DNA of 64,000 bases from Nitrosomonas sp. Its GTDB lineage: Bacteria > Pseudomonadota > Gammaproteobacteria > Burkholderiales > Nitrosomonadaceae. The notes below the pieces were generated by a model. That model made no database searches, was not told where the DNA came from, and worked only from the letters and a program-made list of their open reading frames with translations. Each line of letters opens with the position of its first letter. Positions within the stretch are counted from its first letter, which is position 1. Positions 7,454 to 34,899 of the stretch are shown piece after piece. The DNA lies in NCBI GenBank assembly GCA_019745325.1, contig JAIETK010000012.1, forward strand, positions 1 through 64,000. Reading direction: 5' to 3'. The position numbers and the translations under genes were made by a program.

Positions 7454-8599
7454 ATGCTTACTCAGAATGGCAAACAGACAGCTCTGATATTCGTACTGAT
7501 GATTGCCATTATTGCTTATTGGTACGGTACTGATCAGAAAGAATCCGATACTAACCCTTATAAAACCAGAAGTGCCGAGCGCGGTGATATTATTCAAACG
7601 ATCTCCGCCAATGGCACGTTAACGCCGCTCATTTTAGTCAATGTCGGCACCCAGATATCAGGAACCGTGACCAGATTATATGCCGACTATAATGACCGTA
7701 TCGAAACCGGTCAGGTGTTAGCCGAACTCGATCCGGCGTTGTTACGCGCGCAATTACAACAATCCCGGGCTAACCACCTGAACGCGCAAACAGCCTTAAA
7801 AATTGCGGAAAACAAATTGAAACGCCATCGTTTGTTACAGCAACAAGGATTCATCTCACCGGAAGCGCTTGAAATCGTTGAGCAAGAAACCGCAGCGGCA
7901 CGAGCGCAAATGGCAGTCACTAAAGCACAAGTGGATCGTGACCAAACCAATCTTAACTACAGCATCATCCGCTCTCCAATTTCCGGGGTTGTCATTGCAC
8001 GTGATGTCGATATCGGGCAAACCGTCGCAGCCAATTTTCAGACACCGACTTTGTTCAAAATCGCCAAAGATTTACGGCAGATGCAAATCAATATCAGCGT
8101 TGCAGAAGCGGATATCGGCTTATTGCACATCGGACAGTCGATCAATTTTTCTGTCGATGCTTTCCAGAATCTCCAATTTACCGGTACTGTTAAGCAGGTT
8201 CGGCTGAATCCGACCATCCAGGAAAATGTTGTGACCTATAATGTGGTAGCGATCGTTGACAATGAAGATGAAAAGTTATTACCCGGTATGACCGCCAACA
8301 TTCACTTTGTCGTAGCGCAAAAAAATGACGTGCTCCGTGTACCCAATGCTGCATTGCGATTTCAACCGAAAGACAATCAGTTGAGCGATTCCGGCAAAGC
8401 CTCACTCAAAACCGCATCCTCCAAACTTTATATCCTTAAAGAAAATAAGCCTTCACTGATAAACGTTGTGACCGGGATTTCCGATGGAAATCATACAGAA
8501 ATCATCAGTGGTGAAATTAATCCCGGTGATCCCATCATTATCAGCGAAGCGGTTGACAAGAAGGAATCCGAGAGTAAGTTCCGATTAAGGTTTTTCTAA
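7454..8599 (+). CDS. MacA-like periplasmic adaptor (RND/HlyD type)
   Basis: Membrane fusion protein of 381 residues. An N-terminal membrane helix (about residues 9-24) is followed by the first lipoyl half (GTQISGTVTRLYADYNDRI), a helical hairpin (about 95-165), the second lipoyl half (YSIIRSPISGVVIARDVDIG) and beta-barrel plus membrane-proximal domains. It would link an inner-membrane ABC transporter to an outer-membrane duct. The ATPase gene starts two bases after its stop, so the trio 7454-10636 is one operon. The substrate is unknown; MacAB relatives export macrolides, peptides or lipopeptides. No TolC gene is adjacent. Confidence 0.9.
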   Translation: MLTQNGKQTALIFVLMIAIIAYWYGTDQKESDTNPYKTRSAERGDIIQTISANGTLTPLILVNVGTQISGTVTRLYADYNDRIETGQVLAELDPALLRAQLQQSRANHLNAQTALKIAENKLKRHRLLQQQGFISPEALEIVEQETAAARAQMAVTKAQVDRDQTNLNYSIIRSPISGVVIARDVDIGQTVAANFQTPTLFKIAKDLRQMQINISVAEADIGLLHIGQSINFSVDAFQNLQFTGTVKQVRLNPTIQENVVTYNVVAIVDNEDEKLLPGMTANIHFVVAQKNDVLRVPNAALRFQPKDNQLSDSGKASLKTASSKLYILKENKPSLINVVTGISDGNHTEIISGEINPGDPIIISEAVDKKESESKFRLRFF

Positions 8600-8601
8600 C
8601 G

Positions 8602-9345
8602 ATGTTGGCTCAAAACAATAACGCTGGCACAGCCATCATACGAATTGAGAATTTGTGCAAAAGCTATAGCTTACAAGGCGCCGACGGCAAAACCATTATT
8701 AGTCAGGTTCTGTTTGACATCAACATCACCGTGAATCAAGGCGAGTTTGTTGCCATCATGGGACATTCGGGGTCTGGGAAATCCACATTAATGAATATCC
8801 TGGGTTGTCTGGATATTCCAACTAGCGGATCTTACTGGTTGTCCGGCAAAAATATCTCAACATTGTCTGAAAATGAGCTGGCACGCATTCGCAATCAAAG
8901 TATCGGTTTCGTATTTCAGGGATTTAATCTTCTAAAACGCATGACAGCTTTGGATAATGTTGCCGTTCCATTGCTTTATGCTGGAATCAGCCGGTCTAAA
9001 AGCCGTCAGCAAGCACTTACGTTGTTACGTAGCACCGGTCTGGAAAAATTCGCCATGCATCAACCGAATCAATTATCAGGCGGGCAACAACAACGCGTCG
9101 CGATCAGCCGCGCTTTAGTCAATCACCCTCCGCTCATTCTCGCCGATGAACCAACCGGCAATCTGGATACGCAAACCAGCAAGGAGATTATGCAATTGTT
9201 TGAGCAGCTCAATCGCGATCAAGGTATAACCGTCGTGCTGGTTACGCACGAAGACGACGTCGCGTCGTATGCCAGGCGTTTAATCCGGCTAAAAGACGGG
9301 TGTGTCATTTATGACGACAAAAATACCATCACCGGCGATCACTAA
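8602..9345 (+). CDS. MacB/LolD-type ABC transporter ATPase
   Basis: ATP-binding subunit of 247 residues. Walker A is GHSGSGKST (residues 54-62), the signature motif is LSGGQQQRVAISRAL, and Walker B is LILADEPTGNLD, followed by an H-loop in VVLVTHE. These place it in the MacB/LolD/FtsE-like group that powers mechanotransmission exporters. In E. coli MacB the ATPase and permease are fused; here they are separate genes. Its start lies two bases after the adaptor stop codon, suggesting translational coupling. Confidence 0.93.
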   Translation: MLAQNNNAGTAIIRIENLCKSYSLQGADGKTIISQVLFDINITVNQGEFVAIMGHSGSGKSTLMNILGCLDIPTSGSYWLSGKNISTLSENELARIRNQSIGFVFQGFNLLKRMTALDNVAVPLLYAGISRSKSRQQALTLLRSTGLEKFAMHQPNQLSGGQQQRVAISRALVNHPPLILADEPTGNLDTQTSKEIMQLFEQLNRDQGITVVLVTHEDDVASYARRLIRLKDGCVIYDDKNTITGDH

Positions 9346-25710: not shown

Positions 25711-25865
25711 AAAACCATTTAACTAATTGATCAAAGCAGATATCATCTGCTGCGAACACATTTTAACTACAGGGTAATCACATCGTAAGCGTACAATCCC
25801 AATACCTTCATCAGTCATCGACCCGCACTAAATAACTGATCCTATGATAATTCTTGAATAATATC

Positions 25866-27008
25866 ATGCCGCCTAAACGCTACCTGCAGAAAATTTTCTT
25901 CTTAGGCATTACCGTATTAATCATAGCTAGCCTGGCGCGAGCGGAAACCATCGAACTTGGAATGAGCACCGCGCTTAGCGGCCCCAATCAATTACTGGGA
26001 CAAGCAATGTATCAAGGTATGAAGGCTTGTTTCGACGAAACCAACCGGCGTGGCGGCATTCGGGGGCGCAAGATCAATTTAACGGTGCTTGACGACGGTT
26101 ATGAGCCCGATAACGTCCTTACCAATACCCTGCAACTCATCGATCAGCAGAAAGTCGTCGCAATCGTCGGTAACGCCGGCACTCCGACTGCTGCAATCTC
26201 GGCGCCTCTGGCGAATTCACGCGGCGTGGTTTTCTATGGCGCATTTACCGGCGCCGATCTATTGCGCAAAACACCGTCCGATCCCTATGTTTTTAATTTT
26301 CGCGCAAGCTACCGGCAGGAAATGGAGGTCATTGTGCGCGATATTATTAATCAAGGCATTTCCCCCAAGCAGATTGCGCTTTTCTTACAAGACGATTCTC
26401 TCGGACAAACGGGATTTGAAATTACCAAAGCCGCATTGGAAAAAACCGGCTTTCACCAAAACGATCAGTTACTGGTAACACATTATCCCCGGAATACCTT
26501 AGCTATCCAGAGTGCGATAGAAACCCTCGTCAGGGCTCAGCCGGAGCCAGAAGCCATCATCATCGTCGGCGCTTACCAGCCGATTGCCCAATTCATCCGC
26601 TTTGCACACCGGATTTTTCCCAATACCCGTTTTTATAATTTATCGTTCGCGGGTGCCTCACTGCTGTCCGATGCGCTTGAAGGCATTCAAGGACGGATTT
26701 ATATGACTCAAGTTGTACCGCCTGCGGCAACTGCTTCTACAGAAAATGCCGGTTCAACAAATTTTATTTGGCGCGAGGGATATTTTGCTGCACAAGTTTT
26801 GGTGAAAGCTTTGGAAAACATCGATGAAGAGATAACCAGTGATCAATTGAAAACAGCATTGAACTCTCTTGGCACCTTCCACCTGGAAGACTTCGGTGTG
26901 TTGTCCCTTGGTTCCAACGATCATCAGGCTAGTGATCTCGTTTGGTTAACCCGCTTCGACCATTCGCTCAAATGGCAAGAAGTTCGATCCGATCGGGTGA
27001 GCAAATGA
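25866..27008 (+). CDS. Periplasmic Leu/Ile/Val-type substrate-binding protein
   Basis: 380 residues from the ATG at 25866; a TTG four codons upstream is rejected because it only lengthens the signal peptide. Residues 1-26 form a signal peptide (IFFLGITVLIIASLARA). The mature protein is a type I periplasmic binding protein (Peripla_BP_6): ETIELGMSTALSGPNQLLGQAMYQGMKA is broken here into its hallmarks LSGPNQ and GGIRGRKI, followed by VVAIVGNAGTPTA. No ABC permease or ATPase gene adjoins it. Instead its TGA overlaps the ATG of the channel gene (ATGA), so it is probably a soluble ligand presenter or sensor partner for that channel, likely for an amino acid or similar (inference). Confidence 0.88.
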   Translation: MPPKRYLQKIFFLGITVLIIASLARAETIELGMSTALSGPNQLLGQAMYQGMKACFDETNRRGGIRGRKINLTVLDDGYEPDNVLTNTLQLIDQQKVVAIVGNAGTPTAAISAPLANSRGVVFYGAFTGADLLRKTPSDPYVFNFRASYRQEMEVIVRDIINQGISPKQIALFLQDDSLGQTGFEITKAALEKTGFHQNDQLLVTHYPRNTLAIQSAIETLVRAQPEPEAIIIVGAYQPIAQFIRFAHRIFPNTRFYNLSFAGASLLSDALEGIQGRIYMTQVVPPAATASTENAGSTNFIWREGYFAAQVLVKALENIDEEITSDQLKTALNSLGTFHLEDFGVLSLGSNDHQASDLVWLTRFDHSLKWQEVRSDRVSK

Positions 27009-29185
27009 GCGAATTAAAGCAATCGCCTCATGCTTCCCCTTTCAGCCGGGATACAAGCGCGTGGCTGAGAAACTTGCTGGGTGTTGGCACACTGATTGTT
27101 TTCTGCTTCTTTATTTGGTCCAGCTTTGACCTGATGCATAAATCCCGCAATACTTTGTATTTATCTGAGCAACAAGCCATTTTGACGACCGAAAAGATGG
27201 CGTACTCGATTCATGATCATCTGAAAGAATTGATCCTTGCGGCAGATGAGCTAGCGGAAAATCTGGCCGGAATGCCCCTGGATCAAGAAGCAGTTGAATT
27301 CACACTGAAAAAATCTGCCCTTAACCATGCCGGCTACTACGCACTGGGCGTCGCATTTGACTTGTACCAAATCAGTCCGCAATTACGCTTGTTCGCACCG
27401 TTTCTCCGCAAAAACGCTACAACTTATCAACTGGATCGCCTCGATCAGCACTATGACTATACGGGTAATGCCGTATACGGCGATCGCAACTCCAGCGCGC
27501 GCAACTGGTATCAACACGCATCCATCGGAAGAAGCGGATGGCTTGAGCCCTATTACGACTTAGCTTATCAACAAGTCACTATAAAATATGTAACACCATT
27601 ACGTGCACATGCACAATCGGAGGATTTAAAGAAAGGCGTCGTTTTCCTGGATATCGGGATTGAATGGTTCAGGCACCACATTGAGAATCATGACGTCGGT
27701 GATAACGGCTACGCCATAATAGTCAACAATAACGGACAGATCATTTATCATGGCTTAAAAGGCCCCAAAAAAATAATCAGCGAGTTACACCAGTCCATTT
27801 CACCGTCATACTTGGCTGATTTTTCCACTGGTTCCCCCGGAATCAATGAACTGACCGGACGTTCCGCATGGCTGCACAAATTTCCGATCGGTGAAACCGG
27901 CTGGTACGTGCTTACCGTCATGAATACCGAACTCAGCAACAAAAATTTGTTTCACAATCAGCCGGATCATCCGGTTATCCATAAGTCCGATATTCATTAT
28001 TGGATCCTCACGACGGTGATATTACTGCTAATGATTTACAGCTGGATAGCGCTGATAAAACATCAACACTCGATTACACATTTATTGCGTCACGCGTTTA
28101 TTTTCTCCCTGTTGCTGACGCTGGGCATTATCACTATCTGGATCAACGAATACTTCGCCGCATCCCCGGTACAAAACAATTCATTGACTTTATCCAACCG
28201 GGCGATCGTTGAGCAATTTCAGGATGACTATACGATCAGCACGCTCAATGAATCCAAGCATCCGCCTTTCTATGTGCCTACCGGCCTGTTCATTCAGTCA
28301 ATCGAGTTTCTAAATGCCAGCAATACCGCTGTATCGGGTTATGTCTGGCAACGCTATCCCAAGAGCTATGAAGAATCCATCGAGCCTGGCGTCATTTTTC
28401 CTGAAGCTATCCAAACCGCCCTTACCGAGGCGTATACCCATGAGGAAAATAACGAAATCGTCAAAGGCTGGTATTTCGAAGTGACTTTAAGAGAAACGTT
28501 TGACTATCAAGGTTATCCTTTTGACAGGCAATTCCTTTGGATCCGGTTATGGCATAAGGAATTTACCAAAAATATCATTCTCGTACCCGACTTTAAAGCA
28601 TTTGACAGCCTCAACCCAAGCACTTTACCGGGAGTCGAGAAAGATTTCGTTTTATCGGAATGGAATTTATCACGCGCATATTTCGACATCCGCATCAACA
28701 AATACAACAGCAATTTCGGCAATACCCGTTTCACCAGTCACGACAAGATGCCGGAACTCTATTTCAACATTGAAATTTCCCGCAATATCTTAAACCCGTT
28801 CATTGCGCATCTATTTCCCTTAGCGGTTGTATTGCTGATGCTCTATGGAATCGTACTGACCATATCGAAACAGGAAACCAATTTAACCATCACCGGTTTT
28901 AACGTATCCGCTGTGATTGCAGCCTGCTCAGCGCTTTTCTTCATTTTATTGATCATGCATGTGCAACTGAGGGATGAGCTGGCTGTAAACACCATTGTGT
29001 ACCTTGAATATTTTTATCTGATTTCCTATGTTACGATCTTAATGGTCACCGTCAACACGGTATTATTCTCTTATGATCCGCCATTGCCAATACTGGCATT
29101 CAAGGATAATTTCATCCCCAAATTGATTTATTGGCCGGTATTATTGCTGTGGATTTTCCTGATTACCGCCATTCTCTTTTCTTAA
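27005..29185 (+). CDS. dCache sensor fused to a pentameric ligand-gated ion channel-like module
   Basis: 726 residues from the ATG overlapping the previous stop. Cytosolic N-terminus, TM1 (about 24-42), a periplasmic dCache domain (about 45-328) with R166-x-W168-Y169, Y183-x-D185 and D216, TM2 (about 332-351) and TM3 (about 365-384). Then comes a periplasmic beta-rich domain (about 390-592) with the Pro-loop signature YPFDRQ (504-509) and no Cys-loop cysteines, as in prokaryotic pLGICs. Four helices follow: M1 (597-620), M2 (about 628-652), M3 (about 664-688) and M4 (about 706-726, at the very C-terminus). Order and local motifs parallel GLIC: NIIL after YPFD, GWD/EWN, EANVTL/ETNLTI before M2, EVTV/MVTV in M3. 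E624 may align with the selectivity-filter glutamate. Ligand-gated ion flow is inferred. Confidence 0.8.
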   Translation: MSELKQSPHASPFSRDTSAWLRNLLGVGTLIVFCFFIWSSFDLMHKSRNTLYLSEQQAILTTEKMAYSIHDHLKELILAADELAENLAGMPLDQEAVEFTLKKSALNHAGYYALGVAFDLYQISPQLRLFAPFLRKNATTYQLDRLDQHYDYTGNAVYGDRNSSARNWYQHASIGRSGWLEPYYDLAYQQVTIKYVTPLRAHAQSEDLKKGVVFLDIGIEWFRHHIENHDVGDNGYAIIVNNNGQIIYHGLKGPKKIISELHQSISPSYLADFSTGSPGINELTGRSAWLHKFPIGETGWYVLTVMNTELSNKNLFHNQPDHPVIHKSDIHYWILTTVILLLMIYSWIALIKHQHSITHLLRHAFIFSLLLTLGIITIWINEYFAASPVQNNSLTLSNRAIVEQFQDDYTISTLNESKHPPFYVPTGLFIQSIEFLNASNTAVSGYVWQRYPKSYEESIEPGVIFPEAIQTALTEAYTHEENNEIVKGWYFEVTLRETFDYQGYPFDRQFLWIRLWHKEFTKNIILVPDFKAFDSLNPSTLPGVEKDFVLSEWNLSRAYFDIRINKYNSNFGNTRFTSHDKMPELYFNIEISRNILNPFIAHLFPLAVVLLMLYGIVLTISKQETNLTITGFNVSAVIAACSALFFILLIMHVQLRDELAVNTIVYLEYFYLISYVTILMVTVNTVLFSYDPPLPILAFKDNFIPKLIYWPVLLLWIFLITAILFS

Positions 29186-29209
29186 TCCCGCAAAACGCTA
29201 GGAGCGTGC

Positions 29210-30211
29210 ATGGAAGATTCGAAATCGTTTGATCCTTATAAACAAACAAACATCCGCTATCAATTGTACCGGGAAGCTCGCGCAATGGCGGAGTATGCAT
29301 TGGCTAACGGCAAAACGGTCCCGGAAACAGTCATACGGACCATTGATGCATTCGCTATTCAGGATGATCAAGTGTTAAACGATCGAATCAATGTCCGTTC
29401 CGATCTGGATATTGGGGAATTGCTGGTAGCGCATTGCACCTTGGCCAAAATTGTCGAGCCTGCGAAACCCAAAACAATTCTATTACTGGATATTGAACAA
29501 GGCGTCACCGGCTTTATGAAATTCCTTGGTCCGGTATCGCTGATCCGCCAGATGATGATCGCGGCGGTCGTCTCATTAATTTTGTTCATTGGTCTTTCGT
29601 TGACCGAGGAAGTTAGCCACGACAGCGGCAACATCATGATGCAGGATGGATATGAGTTATTGCTGAATTTAATGTTTTATCTCTCAGCAGCCGGCTTGGG
29701 AGCTTCGTTTGCCGCGCTTTATAAAGCCAATACCTATATCGCGAACGGAACATTCGATCCGACCTACCACGCTTCTTACTGGATACAATTTTTTTTGGGG
29801 TTGATCGCCGGTCTCATTCTCGCCATTATGGTTTCCGAAGCATATTTCAGCAAACATTTAAGCGAAACCCCTTTTTTGGAAAAAGGTATCATCAGGCCAT
29901 TGCTTGCAATGCTGGGCGGTTTCTCAGCGGATCTGACGCATACGGTGCTGAGCCGTTTGGTCGAAACTATCCGTTCGCTTTTTACCGGCAGCCCGCGAGA
30001 CCAAATGGCCAATAAGAAAAAAGCGTTACAGAATGATTTTGCGGCTCAGCACAATCAGGAAAAAATGCATATGGCATCCAATCTGGTTACGCTTCAACAA
30101 ATTATCAACAGCGGAGCAACGGCGGAAGAGCTCAATCAAAAAATTGATCTGATTTTGAAAGATACGCTGCCTACGACCGAAATTCAGAGAAAATCGATCG
30201 ATGAAGAATAA
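29210..30211 (+). CDS. Membrane protein of unknown function, third gene of the channel operon
   Basis: 333 residues; AGGAG at 29200-29204 sets the ATG. The soluble N-terminal 100 residues (helical, acidic) are followed by membrane segments at about 112-132, 150-170, 190-211 and a weaker one at 226-245. The C-terminal 80 residues are charged and predicted helical (QNDFAAQHNQEKMHMASN), possibly a coiled coil. I recognise no family. The gene starts 24 bases after the dCache-channel gene on the same strand and ends 19 bases before the convergent ftsH, so it closes the operon. It may be an accessory or effector subunit of the channel (inference from position only). Confidence 0.75.
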   Translation: MEDSKSFDPYKQTNIRYQLYREARAMAEYALANGKTVPETVIRTIDAFAIQDDQVLNDRINVRSDLDIGELLVAHCTLAKIVEPAKPKTILLLDIEQGVTGFMKFLGPVSLIRQMMIAAVVSLILFIGLSLTEEVSHDSGNIMMQDGYELLLNLMFYLSAAGLGASFAALYKANTYIANGTFDPTYHASYWIQFFLGLIAGLILAIMVSEAYFSKHLSETPFLEKGIIRPLLAMLGGFSADLTHTVLSRLVETIRSLFTGSPRDQMANKKKALQNDFAAQHNQEKMHMASNLVTLQQIINSGATAEELNQKIDLILKDTLPTTEIQRKSIDEE

Positions 30212-30230: not shown

Positions 30231-32084
30231 TCATTCTGCCAGGTTAGCGGATCCGCGATGTTGCTGCGCGTTAGTTGTGATTGCCTGTTTTAGTTTGAGG
30301 ATTTCGGGTTGATTGAGCGTTTCGGTTTTCAATAATTCCCCGGCAGTCTGCTCAAGCAACCCCCGATTATTTTGCAGGATGCCGATTGCCCGCTCTAACG
30401 CTTGATCAACCAGCATTCGTATCGCGATATCGATTTTATTGGCGGTTTCCTCGCTATAATTCCGGGTTTGGGGCAACGGAAAACTCGGTTGCAGGAAAGC
30501 GGATTGTTCCCGGTCGTAGGCCACATTACCCAGCGCTTCGCTCATTCCATAGCGTAATACCATTGCACGAGCGATATCGGTTGCCCGCACCAAATCATCG
30601 GCCGCACCGGTCGAAACTTCGTGACACACAACCTGCTCGGCTGCGCGGCCACCCAGCAGCACTGCCATTTTGTTCAACAATTCCGCGCGTGTCATTAAAT
30701 AGCGGTCTTCTGTCGGGCGTTGTATGGTGTAACCCAATGCTCCCACTCCGCGCGGAATGATCGACACTTTGTGGACTTCATCGCTACCGGGCAAAGCCAA
30801 AGCAACCATGGCGTGCCCTAATTCGTGAAAAGCGACGACCCGCCGTTCATCGGGATTTAATAACCGGTTGCGCTTTTCAAGACCGGCGACAATCCGCTCA
30901 ATCGCGTTATTAAAATCCGCCATCGTGACCGCTGGCGCGGCGCGGCGTGTCGCGAGCAGCGCCGCCTCGTTGACCAGATTCGCCAGATCCGCACCGGTAA
31001 AGCCTGGAGTTAATGCGGCAATCTGTTCGATTTTCACATCGTTATACAATTTCACTTTCTTGATATGTACAGCAAGAATTTGCTCACGACCGGTTTTATC
31101 CGGGCGATCCACCAAGACTTGCCGGTCAAACCGTCCCGCCCGCAGTAATGCCGGATCCAGAATTTCCGGACGATTGGTTGCTGCCAGCAAAACAATACCG
31201 CTACTCGAATCAAAACCATCCAATTCCGCTAATAACTGATTCAACGTTTGTTCTTTTTCATCATGTCCGCCGCCTAATCCTCCGTAAGCGCCACGGGCGC
31301 GGCCCAAGGCATCGAGCTCGTCGATAAATATGATCGCTGGGGCCATTTGCCGGGCTTGTTCAAACAAATCACGTACCCTGGCGGCACCGACACCGACAAA
31401 CATTTCCACAAATTCCGAACCGGAAATGGAAAAGAACGGCACGCCTGCCTCGCCGGCGACAGCACGCGCCAATAACGTTTTACCGGTACCCGGTGGTCCA
31501 ACCAATAAAATACCCTTCGGCACCCGTCCGCCCAAACGTCCATAATCTGCGGGATTCTTAAGGAAATTGATGATTTCCATCAGTTCGTCTTTTGCTTCAT
31601 CGACACCGGCAACATCGTCGAATGTCACTTTGGTTTCTTTCTCGACAAAAACCTTGGCGCGGCTCTTACCGATCGACATTAAACCGCTGCCCATGCCGCT
31701 ACCCATCCGGCGAATGATAAATAACCAAATGCCGATAAAGATTGCAGTCGGCACAATCCAGGAAAGCAGATCACGCAACCAGGTGCTTTGCACCACGCCG
31801 GTATAAACTACATGATACTTGTCCAGCATCTCGGCAAATTCAGGATCAACCCGGGTGGTTACAAATTCTTTGAAGCCATCGGCATGCTTTTCTTTGAGCG
31901 TGCCGATGATTTGATTTTCGGTAATGGCAATTTCAGCAATTTGTCCTTGCTCCAACAAATGCTGGAAGCGGCTATAAGGTATCGGTTCAATCTGAGTATA
32001 GCGTTGATAAAAACTCTGAATCATCATTAAACTGAGTAACGCCACGATGACGAACCAGAAGTTAAGATGCGTTTTTTTATCCAT
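30231..32084 (-). CDS. ftsH: FtsH-like membrane AAA+ zinc protease
   Basis: ATP-dependent protease of 617 residues. N-terminal TM (about 9-25), a small periplasmic domain, TM2 (about 105-124). The AAA+ domain has Walker A GPPGTGKT (196-203), Walker [13 protein letters not shown], the arginine-finger region RAGRFDRQV, and [13 protein letters not shown] as the pore loop. The M41 domain has the HExxH zinc site as H420-ELG-H424 and an acidic third ligand in [13 protein letters not shown]. Housekeeping FtsH usually reads HEAGH, so this may be a second paralogue. It is monocistronic, with a 424-base upstream region. Confidence 0.92.
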
Positions 32085-32508: not shown

Positions 32509-34899
32509 GTGAATTACCAACCGCCTCCAACCAATCAATCTCTCGCACTGTTAACCGAACAAGTTAAACTGCTTTATCAGCAGACTCCCAAAGCGTTAAT
32601 TGTTACCTTAATCGTCGCAACGGCATTGGTGTATGTCTACTGGGATTATGTTGTTAGAGAGTGGCTGGTCGGTTGGCTTGCAGCTATCTATTTGCTGACT
32701 TCGGTCAGATTCCTGTTAGTCCGATCATACTTCCGTATTAAACCACTCATGACTGATTCAGTCCGCTGGGGGCGATGGTTTATGATCGGAGTGGCGTTAT
32801 CGGGCTTACTTTGGGGCGCTGCGGGCGGTATTTTTTTTGTGAGTGATAGTGAAACGCACCAGTTCTTCCTGGCATATTTGCTTGGAGGCATGATTGCGGG
32901 CGCCATGGCTACCTTATCGTATTACAAAGGAGCCTTCCTGATTTTTTCCGTACCTGTTGTGCTGCCGTTCTCCTATCAAGTCCTGATTCATGAGACCGAA
33001 ACACAGATGGTTATCGTGCTGACGTTTCTGCTATTCGCCGGAGCGATGTCGAGTATCTCTTACCGGCTGTATTGCACAATGGTGGATTCACTGAAACTTC
33101 GCTTTGATAATTTTGATCTCCTGAAACGCTTAATCCAAACAAAAAATGAACTGGAACAGCGTGTTACAGAACGTACCGAAGCGCTTACAACCGCCAATAA
33201 TATCCTGCATCAGGAAAAAGAATTATTTCAGGTCACTTTGGCAAGCATCGGAGATGCAGTCATTACAACAGATGCCGCCGGGAAAATCACTTTTTTGAAC
33301 CCTATTGCCGAAATTTTTACCGGCTGGAGTAATCAGGAGGCACAAAACGCATTATTACCACAAGTATTGAACATTCTGAATCCAACCACACGGGAACCGA
33401 TAATCAATCCATTGGCCGGGCATTTTAATGGTGCAGAAAATGGGAATATTCATCACGAATGTCTTCTGATCCGCCGAGATCAAAAGGAATGGATTATCGA
33501 TTACGCAGTAGCGCCAATCCGGAATAAAGACAAGGAAATCATTGGTACGGTATTAACTTTCCGCGACGTAACGGAGCAACGTAAGCTGACTCAGAAGCTT
33601 GCTTATCAAGCAGCGCACGATTCTCTGACCGGTTTGCTCAACCGCAAGGAATTCGAGAACCGGCTTAGCAAAATTTTAAAATCGACCCGCAAAACTGATA
33701 CGCACGCATTACTATATCTCGACTTGGATCAGTTCAAAATTATCAACGACACATGCGGACACAGCGCAGGTGATGAATTATTACGTCAAATCACGGCATT
33801 ACTGCACGCCAAGCTGCGAACCCGGGATACCCTCGCTCGCCTAGGCGGTGATGAGTTCGGCATCATTCTGGAGCATTGTCCGCAAAATGAAGCCATACAA
33901 GTGGCGAACATTCTACGGGAGCTGGTTCAGAATTTCCGCTTCCAGTGGCAAGGACAAACATTCACAATCGGTGTGAGCATCGGGTTATTTCCAATCACGC
34001 ATTCAAACCAAGGATTGACGCAGGCATTGAATGCTGCGGACAGTGCTTGTTATGCGGCCAAAGAACAAGGACGTAACCGCGTGCATGTTTATCAGGCTAC
34101 CAGTCAGCGGCAAGAACCCAATGAAACGCAATGGGTGCCGCGTATTCAGCAGGCTCTGGCGGAACAGCGTTTTTGCCTTTTTTATCAACCGATCCGGCTA
34201 ATTTCAACCAATGGCAATCACGAACAGCATGGCGAAATATTACTGCGGTTAAAAGATGAACAAGGCCAATTCATTATACCCGGCGCATTCCTTCCTGCCG
34301 CTGACCGTCACGATCAAATGTTGCTGATTGATCGCTGGGTAGTACAACAATCGCTGCAATTGATTAAAGTTCATGCTGCCACGAAGTCGCAAACGGTCTA
34401 TACCATCAATATTTCAGGACGCGCACTTGAAGATGCGGAGTTCCTGGATTTTACGATCAGCACGATTAAGTCGAGCCAAGTCAATCCAACATCCATTTGT
34501 TTTGAAATTAGTGAACATGTTGCATTAACCGATATCAATCATGTGGTGCGATTTGTCACCGCCTTGAAGGACATCGGATGCCGATTCTCCATCGACGATT
34601 TTGGCGGCAACCTGTCAACATTTAATTTCCTAAAAAATATTCCATTAGATTACCTGAAAATTGACGGTCGATTGATCCGGAACATCGCTACAGACCCGGT
34701 TAACCAAGCCATGGTGGAGTCAATCCATCATATTGGTCATGTGATGCGTCTCAAGACGATCGCCGTTTGGGTAGAAAACGGCCAAACGTTGCAAGCTTTA
34801 GAGAATATCGGCGTTGATTACGCACAGGGCTATTGGGTTGCAGAACCGAGTGCATTTAATACAAATACATCAATATCAAATGATTGGCGACAGACCTGA
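32509..34899 (+). CDS. Membrane GGDEF-EAL protein with a PAS domain
   Basis: 796 residues with a GTG start (no strong ribosome site; other starts are possible). The first 190 residues hold five to six membrane segments (MASE-like sensor), then a coiled coil, PAS (about 235-350), GGDEF (about 365-525) with intact LGGDEFG and an RTRD inhibitory site, and EAL (about 550-790). In the EAL domain the opening reads GEILLRL instead of EALLR, DDFG and the KID lysine are present, but the glutamate of the EGVE motif is replaced by V753. That residue is considered the general base in RocR-type EAL enzymes, so phosphodiesterase activity is doubtful and net cyclase activity is more likely (inference). Confidence 0.9.
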   Translation: MNYQPPPTNQSLALLTEQVKLLYQQTPKALIVTLIVATALVYVYWDYVVREWLVGWLAAIYLLTSVRFLLVRSYFRIKPLMTDSVRWGRWFMIGVALSGLLWGAAGGIFFVSDSETHQFFLAYLLGGMIAGAMATLSYYKGAFLIFSVPVVLPFSYQVLIHETETQMVIVLTFLLFAGAMSSISYRLYCTMVDSLKLRFDNFDLLKRLIQTKNELEQRVTERTEALTTANNILHQEKELFQVTLASIGDAVITTDAAGKITFLNPIAEIFTGWSNQEAQNALLPQVLNILNPTTREPIINPLAGHFNGAENGNIHHECLLIRRDQKEWIIDYAVAPIRNKDKEIIGTVLTFRDVTEQRKLTQKLAYQAAHDSLTGLLNRKEFENRLSKILKSTRKTDTHALLYLDLDQFKIINDTCGHSAGDELLRQITALLHAKLRTRDTLARLGGDEFGIILEHCPQNEAIQVANILRELVQNFRFQWQGQTFTIGVSIGLFPITHSNQGLTQALNAADSACYAAKEQGRNRVHVYQATSQRQEPNETQWVPRIQQALAEQRFCLFYQPIRLISTNGNHEQHGEILLRLKDEQGQFIIPGAFLPAADRHDQMLLIDRWVVQQSLQLIKVHAATKSQTVYTINISGRALEDAEFLDFTISTIKSSQVNPTSICFEISEHVALTDINHVVRFVTALKDIGCRFSIDDFGGNLSTFNFLKNIPLDYLKIDGRLIRNIATDPVNQAMVESIHHIGHVMRLKTIAVWVENGQTLQALENIGVDYAQGYWVAEPSAFNTNTSISNDWRQT

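Follow-up and report, generated by a model that had tools for sequence, protein, structure and literature searches.

A conserved Nitrosomonas operon combining a stand-alone periplasmic binding protein, a dCache-fused pLGIC-type protein and a third membrane protein

Analysis of a 64,000-nucleotide stretch of a Nitrosomonas sp. contig (JAIETK010000012.1, positions 1 to 64,000; hereafter the window) revealed a three-gene operon coding for a periplasmic binding protein, a dCache sensor fused to a channel module of the pLGIC superfamily, and a membrane protein of unknown family, here named M333. We consider that the operon probably encodes a periplasmic sensory unit, in which a binding protein of the chemosensory kind would dock on the dCache domain and control the channel. 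An earlier note on this DNA had seen in it a possible ion channel with several sensing parts, a reading now supported by the protein families, their conservation and the selection acting on them, with conduction as a predicted property. Docking, pentamer formation, conduction, the ligand and the role of the third gene are what we infer from these data. Little is established about what prokaryotic pLGICs do in nature, and here the genome itself points to the input of the channel, namely a binding protein, while the expected permease family gave no match in 16 of the 17 genomes of the genus that were tested. If the input is a soluble binding protein, ligand discovery becomes direct, since the ligand of this protein can be sought first and then tried on the channel.

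Table 1. Positions in the window of the operon genes, of the domains of the channel protein and of the convergent neighbour
Feature	Position	Strand	Remarks
Peripla_BP_6 binding-protein gene	25866..27008	+	380 aa from ATG
dCache-pLGIC channel-subunit gene	27005..29185	+	726 aa; start overlaps preceding stop (ATGA)
dCache domain	27176..27907	+	residues 58-301, between TM1 and TM2; dCache_1 and Foldseek folds
TM2-TM3 hairpin	28001..28138	+	residues 333-378; short loop; joins dCache to channel module; hydropathy
pLGIC-type ligand-binding (extracellular) domain	28253..28783	+	about residues 417-593; profile searches, hhalign, fold match
Pro-loop YPFDRQ	28514..28531	+	residues 504-509
M1-M4 channel domain	28802..29179	+	residues 600-725; M1 Pro605; M2 about residues 631-652
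Third gene, membrane protein M333 of unknown family	29210..30211	+	333 aa
FtsH protease gene	30231..32084	-	convergent neighbour, context only

The three reading frames, the ATGA coupling of the first two genes and the 333-residue membrane protein encoded 24 bases downstream of the channel gene had all been proposed in the earlier note, and our reading of the ORFs and junctions agrees with each of them (Table 1). At the first junction (...CAAATGAGC...) the stop TGA lies within ATGA, and the four-base overlap is found in all five intact related copies. At the second junction, GGAG stands immediately 5' of the ATG at 29210, which follows the stop at 29185. Alternative TTG starts are present at 25854 for the first ORF and at 26942 for the second, and the ATG starts appear the likelier ones. 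Promoter and terminator scans gave chance-level numbers (9 found against a mean of 9.1, and 4 against 4.7, respectively). The operon is preceded by a GGDEF response regulator and by a divergent gene whose weak hydrolase match stays below the cut-off, and the FtsH gene that follows it also adjoins the operon in three other loci (L040, L041 and L042). Among the named relatives nearest to this locus are N. oligotropha Nm45 and Nm75, together with an N. ureae MAG. Beyond FtsH, positions 32509-34899 of the window code for a PAS-GGDEF-EAL protein with a GTG start, an ordinary c-di-GMP signalling gene.

The C-terminal module of the second protein is confirmed, at the level of sequence and profile comparison, as a member of the pLGIC superfamily, in agreement with the complete pLGIC-like module described before. 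The HMM check suggested at that time gave no match: the Pfam models Neur_chan_LBD and Neur_chan_memb recognised neither the window protein nor any of 20 family members at a limit of E 10 (HMMER filters drop most matches above 0.1), and a search with PF02931 did not pick up the window channel gene. Since the Pfam models miss this branch, surveys based on them would undercount the superfamily. We built a profile (A7) from 20 modules of the window family, in which the rows of L030 and L098 stop before M4. Compared with the PDB, it gave a best E of 8.9e-7; the best 60 of its 70 matches are all GLIC or GLIC chimaeras, and many of the GLIC alignments extend to profile position 334 of 337. Comparison by hhalign aligned the module profile with eight Pfam-recognised bacterial pLGICs (95.6%, E 1.1e-8) and with eight modules of a binding-protein-fused pLGIC group (98.7%, E 2e-16), a group that includes L120, which was not flagged as fused. 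The modules of this group in turn align with the Pfam-recognised set (E 3.9e-32), with a GABA-A chimaera (E 9.2e-24) and with a glycine receptor (E 1.7e-19). In the full-length AF2 model, residues 538-726 lie below pLDDT 50, so the module was folded alone, as a single chain; the resulting model, built on seven sequences, is of low confidence (pLDDT 49.9) and shows strands followed by four helices in the pLGIC order. In two structure comparisons, the best 50 matches listed were all pLGICs, with 12-18% identity in the Foldseek rows of GLIC and ELIC. Because of the low AF2 confidence, it is the profile evidence that carries weight for the beta-sandwich and four-TM arrangement. Ceramidase and claudin matches of the window module (best E 0.0077 and 0.89) were rejected as TM-helix noise, and two scans of viral contigs yielded no confirmed relatives of the channel.

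The residues characteristic of the superfamily support this assignment. Table 1 of Jaiteh et al. (PMC4795631) gives the Pro-loop Pro at 100%, the M2-M3 loop Pro at 88% and a basic M2 0' residue at 79%, and of the seven residues most conserved in that table the module has six, the M2-M3 Pro being the missing one; with 88% in the source, it was not treated as defining. The Pro-loop, already recognised in the earlier note, conforms to [F/Y]PxD with Y504, P505 and D507; across the 20 family rows the Pro and the aromatic residue are invariant (20/20 each), and the Asp is kept in 15, replaced by Glu in four and by Val in one. The beta9 Trp, the pre-M1 Arg and the M1 Pro correspond to W553 (20/20), R593 (18/20, Lys in two) and P605 (20/20). 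In the M2-M3 segment, Pro occurs in 6/20 family rows. No basic residue is evident at M2 0' of the window copy, in a register taken from the profile alignment through the variable M1-M2 loop. In the same register, positions 6', 9', 13' and 16' of the window copy are S, I, S and F, which is channel-like.

Without an obvious charged ring at the inner end of M2, ion selectivity is not readable from this segment, and with the M2-M3 Pro absent as well, even conduction is a putative property. It is thus conceivable, although we hold it to be rather unlikely, that the pLGIC fold was kept while conduction was lost, the module relaying the binding-protein signal by contact, for example to the third protein. 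Besides the two features just mentioned, the conservation of the third protein would fit such a relay: between the window and other Nitrosomonas copies it is the most conserved of the three (82-84% identity, against 66.5-70.3%), and its gene accompanies the full-length channel gene in six of seven genomes. The pore-facing positions of the family speak for a channel instead, with I/L at 9' in 18 of the 20 rows, S/A at 13' in 16 and F at 16' in 18, and the failure of Pfam to match the module does not imply that conduction was lost.

Hydropathy analysis of the channel protein predicts seven TM segments, at about residues 19-37, 333-351, 360-378, 600-618, 632-650, 663-681 and 707-725. These fit an N-terminus inside, both sensor domains in the periplasm and the C-terminus outside, which is the topology proposed before; the orientation is derived from hydropathy. 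Between the first two TM helices lies a double Cache sensor fold, as the earlier note had recognised. It was detected by the Pfam model dCache_1 (E 3.9e-11, with 43.4 bits slightly below the cut-off of 45) and by matches to dCache structures in the PDB, and Foldseek places it with PctA, PctC and McpU. The fold is near that of the amino-acid receptors PctA, PctC and Mlp24, and this would favour the idea that the dCache domain itself binds the solute, with the binding protein merely concentrating the ligand in the periplasm; Tasneem et al. (PMC549065) proposed such a "preliminary concentration or sensing" role. The binding-site residues make this distinctly unlikely. The dCache_1AA amino-acid motif includes the carboxylate-binding Arg R126 of PctA and the Asp D173 in the numbering of PMC10104139, and although the Asp (D216) is kept in all seven Nitrosomonas proteins, an equivalent of the Arg is found in the window copy only (1/7), with a Lys in one other, so that the Nitrosomonas set does not carry the dCache_1AA signature. 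This argues that the binding protein, not the dCache domain, reads the small ligand.

The binding protein was assigned to Peripla_BP_6 over nearly its full length (residues 28-365, 148.6 bits against a cut-off of 31.7, E 4.7e-43), which upholds the Leu/Ile/Val type named in the earlier note, and it matches PDB 4kv7 over residues 24-375 (E 3.8e-68). Residues 6-24 form a hydrophobic N-terminal segment resembling a signal peptide by hydropathy, and no lipobox Cys was seen by eye. Peripla_BP_6 proteins commonly serve LIV-type ABC importers, and NCBIfam gives as best match a branched-chain amino acid binding protein, at a score well under the cut-off (45.8 of 477 bits). Both facts would agree with a protein feeding an ABC transporter encoded elsewhere, its position in the operon being incidental. 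The permease data make this very improbable. Using the BPD_transp_2 family (LivH/M type) as the test, we found no match in the genome of the window, which is 99.98% complete and in which the operon protein is the sole Peripla_BP_6 match, and the family is present in 12 of 14 control genomes. Among 25 further genomes tested, BPD_transp_2 was not found in any of the six others with the operon (one of them 75% complete), nor in nine of ten genomes of the genus without it, the exception (G056) having two weak matches, the best of 48 bits. Most tested members of the genus thus show no match, with or without the operon, so the absence does not single out operon carriers; against this background the binding protein stands as an orphan. 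In the six other operon genomes, Peripla_BP_6 was matched once in each of four, twice in G022 (one of the matches partial) and not at all in G004, where a contig end cuts the gene. That no matching uptake permease was found in the genome points to the channel as the partner to which the binding protein reports.

The relatives of the binding protein also support a sensory role. On plasmids we found 68 records, 58 of them from Phaeobacter, and examined neighbourhoods in one record per genus for nine of the ten genera (Ruegeria and a second Thioclava record were left out). An MCP gene lies directly 3' on the same strand in Halomonas, Terrarubrum, Phaeobacter, Thioclava and Deinococcus, and a hybrid histidine kinase gene in Burkholderia, so that six of the nine have one or the other; neither was directly adjacent in Bradyrhizobium, Eleftheria (where an HDOD gene is next) or Comamonas. 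The Terrarubrum MCP has a TorS-type sensor domain (E 8.7e-7), and at E 0.001 none of these MCPs or the kinase matched dCache_1, their sensor domains being of other kinds or none that Pfam names. In a tree of 23 binding-protein rows, all eight pLGIC-linked rows fall into a starred ten-row clade together with Halomonas (MCP-linked) and Bradyrhizobium (no transducer), and a 17-row clade holds all non-permease rows with a support of 89/90. The tree omits L159-L162, which had no phmmer match, and ORFs longer than 450 aa (L147, L153) were trimmed to their last 400-420 residues. The permease-linked rows stand apart on long branches, with a placing that the tool flagged as unsure, and their proteins are only remotely similar to the binding protein (E 2e-5 to 7e-13), a second point against an uptake role. 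Sequence comparison thus shows the binding protein to be akin to chemoreceptor- and kinase-linked ones.

Links between binding proteins and pLGICs were also found outside this operon. In a gammaproteobacterial MAG, a pLGIC gene cut by the contig start is followed directly by a binding-protein gene (L025), and a second locus of the same MAG (L026) holds the near-identical 5' part of a dCache-pLGIC; at L092 the binding-protein gene is divergent from the dCache-pLGIC gene. The adjacency therefore recurs in two further lineages (L025 and L092) with other gene orders, which again argues against uptake. In addition, Peripla_BP_6 and the pLGIC module occur in one polypeptide at 11 loci detected by phmmer (E 1.2e-9 to 6.7e-4) and at a twelfth (L104) detected by Pfam. 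Among 14 dCache-pLGIC loci, four have a Peripla_BP_6 neighbour (L037, L038, L040 and L092) and ten have none, including L026, cut at the contig end, and L029, which has a different binding protein.

Other arrangements were observed around pLGIC genes. On a plasmid of Vibrio sp. THAF191d (L029:5684-9935), an SBP_bac_3 protein gene and a permease-like gene precede a dCache-pLGIC gene, all with overlapping ends; the SBP_bac_3 protein has a weak permease-type match at its C-terminus, and this match and the permease-like gene are below the NCBIfam cut-off. At nine loci (L107, L113-L120) a gene of one family, MCP-like with a degenerate signalling domain, stands beside a pLGIC gene that is mostly binding-protein-fused (cut in L114, no fusion flagged in L120); the MCPsignal matches, in the three scanned, are weak and below cut-off. 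In two genomes (L091:6194-7291 and L097:4900-6006), the dCache-pLGIC has as its direct neighbour another protein, which resembles the ligand-binding half of the module only weakly. Genes with eCIS_core (PF13699, DUF4157) occur near pLGIC genes of the window family at L034, L035, L036, L091, L093 and L097 (genomes G019, G026, G004, G301, G306 and G171, respectively), and AAA ATPase genes were seen at L093 and L098, with similar genes at L034, L091 and L096, and pLGICs may be connected with extracellular contractile injection loci. Another genome of the genus to which the window belongs holds a canonical, Pfam-recognised pLGIC of 368 aa (L123:1357-2460), and the genus thus has at least three kinds of pLGIC.

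A survey of 101 genomes, that of the window included, showed that 16 match the channel protein: seven have the full dCache-pLGIC, five a short pLGIC without dCache and five match through dCache only, with G004 in the first two groups. The loci L020-L024 appear to be those of G041, G031, G022, G008 and G004, with the same match statistics, and were counted once. The neighbourhood survey called for in the earlier note revealed that the order of the three genes is kept in six genomes; among those with a full-length channel gene, only G004 (75% complete) does not have the third gene. In G028, beside FtsH (L110:6196-6550, G028:C1), a remnant of the binding protein, 43 residues long and 79% identical, abuts one of the third protein (77 residues, 61%), and the channel gene was not detected at this spot; this locus is a decayed operon. 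At a broader scale, the module profile found matches in 14 of the 369 genomes sampled from the class and in 23 of the 398 sampled from the phylum, and the two samples overlap. Values of dN/dS were 0.056-0.134 for the three operon genes in the four pairs with dS < 0.5 (L038/L039 and three among L040-L042), and FtsH gave 0.030-0.037 in the three such pairs available. By these ratios, purifying selection acts on each of the three genes, and an artefact of dead genes was rejected.

The third protein shows two strong TM segments by hydropathy (109-127 and 191-209), and perhaps two weaker ones by eye. Pfam, NCBIfam and PHROGs returned nothing above cut-off; a PXA match (E 4.9e-4, below cut-off) was taken as chance, and a profile of the protein found one chain in the PDB (7bqr, E 0.26). 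In Burkholderia stagnalis (L027:7905-9837), a homologue about 34% identical (frame 7905-8960) lies four bases 5' of a bestrophin-like gene (PF14023, E 2.8e-47), a single case that again puts the family beside a putative channel. A Paracoccus relative adjoins no recognised channel.

From these data a mechanism for the sensory unit can be proposed. The soluble binding protein would capture a small solute in the periplasm, possibly an amino acid or similar, as its Leu/Ile/Val-binding family suggests. Loaded or empty, it would then dock on the membrane-anchored dCache domain in the manner of LuxP, which acts on LuxQ, and TorT, which acts on TorS, where a binding protein is docked on a sensor. The TM2-TM3 hairpin and the extracellular domain of the pLGIC module may relay the conformational change to the pore, and a homopentameric pore through M2 would open or close. 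For the third protein, a role as accessory subunit, or as one that reads the ion flux so produced, seems probable. More specifically, and more tentatively, a binding protein of the kind that elsewhere reports to chemoreceptors or kinases may have been rewired to a pLGIC, which it would gate as a separate, diffusible protein by docking on the dCache; a dedicated third membrane protein would complete this ionotropic counterpart of LuxPQ. By exchanging partners, one clade of binding proteins may be able to act on taxis, on a kinase or on an ion channel.

A literature search that included Nitrosomonas together with ligand-gated ion channels, and had most subscription journals outside its reach, found no description of the operon. 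That prokaryotic pLGICs with extra N-terminal domains exist had been remarked in the earlier note, and it is documented in PMC549065 and PMC9897478. GLIC and ELIC share with the module the pLGIC fold, the Pro-loop and M1-M4, but do not have a dCache domain. DeCLIC (PMC9897478), the second-ranked Foldseek match of the module (9ftj), likewise carries extra N-terminal domains; these are two jelly-roll lobes that pack against the extracellular domain, whereas here the dCache lies behind a TM hairpin. LuxPQ and TorTS, like the SBP-sensor kinase pairs of PMC11113362, resemble the operon in having a soluble binding protein that acts on a membrane sensor encoded by the adjacent gene; their output is a kinase and here it is a channel module. 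The closest precedents were described by Tasneem et al. in 2004 (PMC549065), who reported, in the sections available, fusions of ART-LGICs with Cache and PBP-I domains as well as PBP-II neighbours, and proposed chemotactic roles. The Cache- and MCP-N-fused ART-LGICs of the distant prokaryotes Methanosarcina, Cytophaga and Microbulbifer similarly have N-terminal sensors fused to a complete pLGIC core. The PBP-I-fused ART-LGICs of Magnetospirillum and Bradyrhizobium similarly combine a type I binding protein with a pLGIC module, but in one polypeptide, whereas here the binding protein is a separate soluble protein and the dCache stands in between. The systems in those sections comprise PBP-II neighbours, one stand-alone Cache neighbour and PBP-I fusions, without a third gene or a test for permease absence. 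Compared with these sections, our analysis adds a stand-alone PBP-I beside a dCache-pLGIC, a conserved third gene, the absence of the permease, the kinship with sensor-linked binding proteins and a branch of pLGICs that Pfam does not detect.
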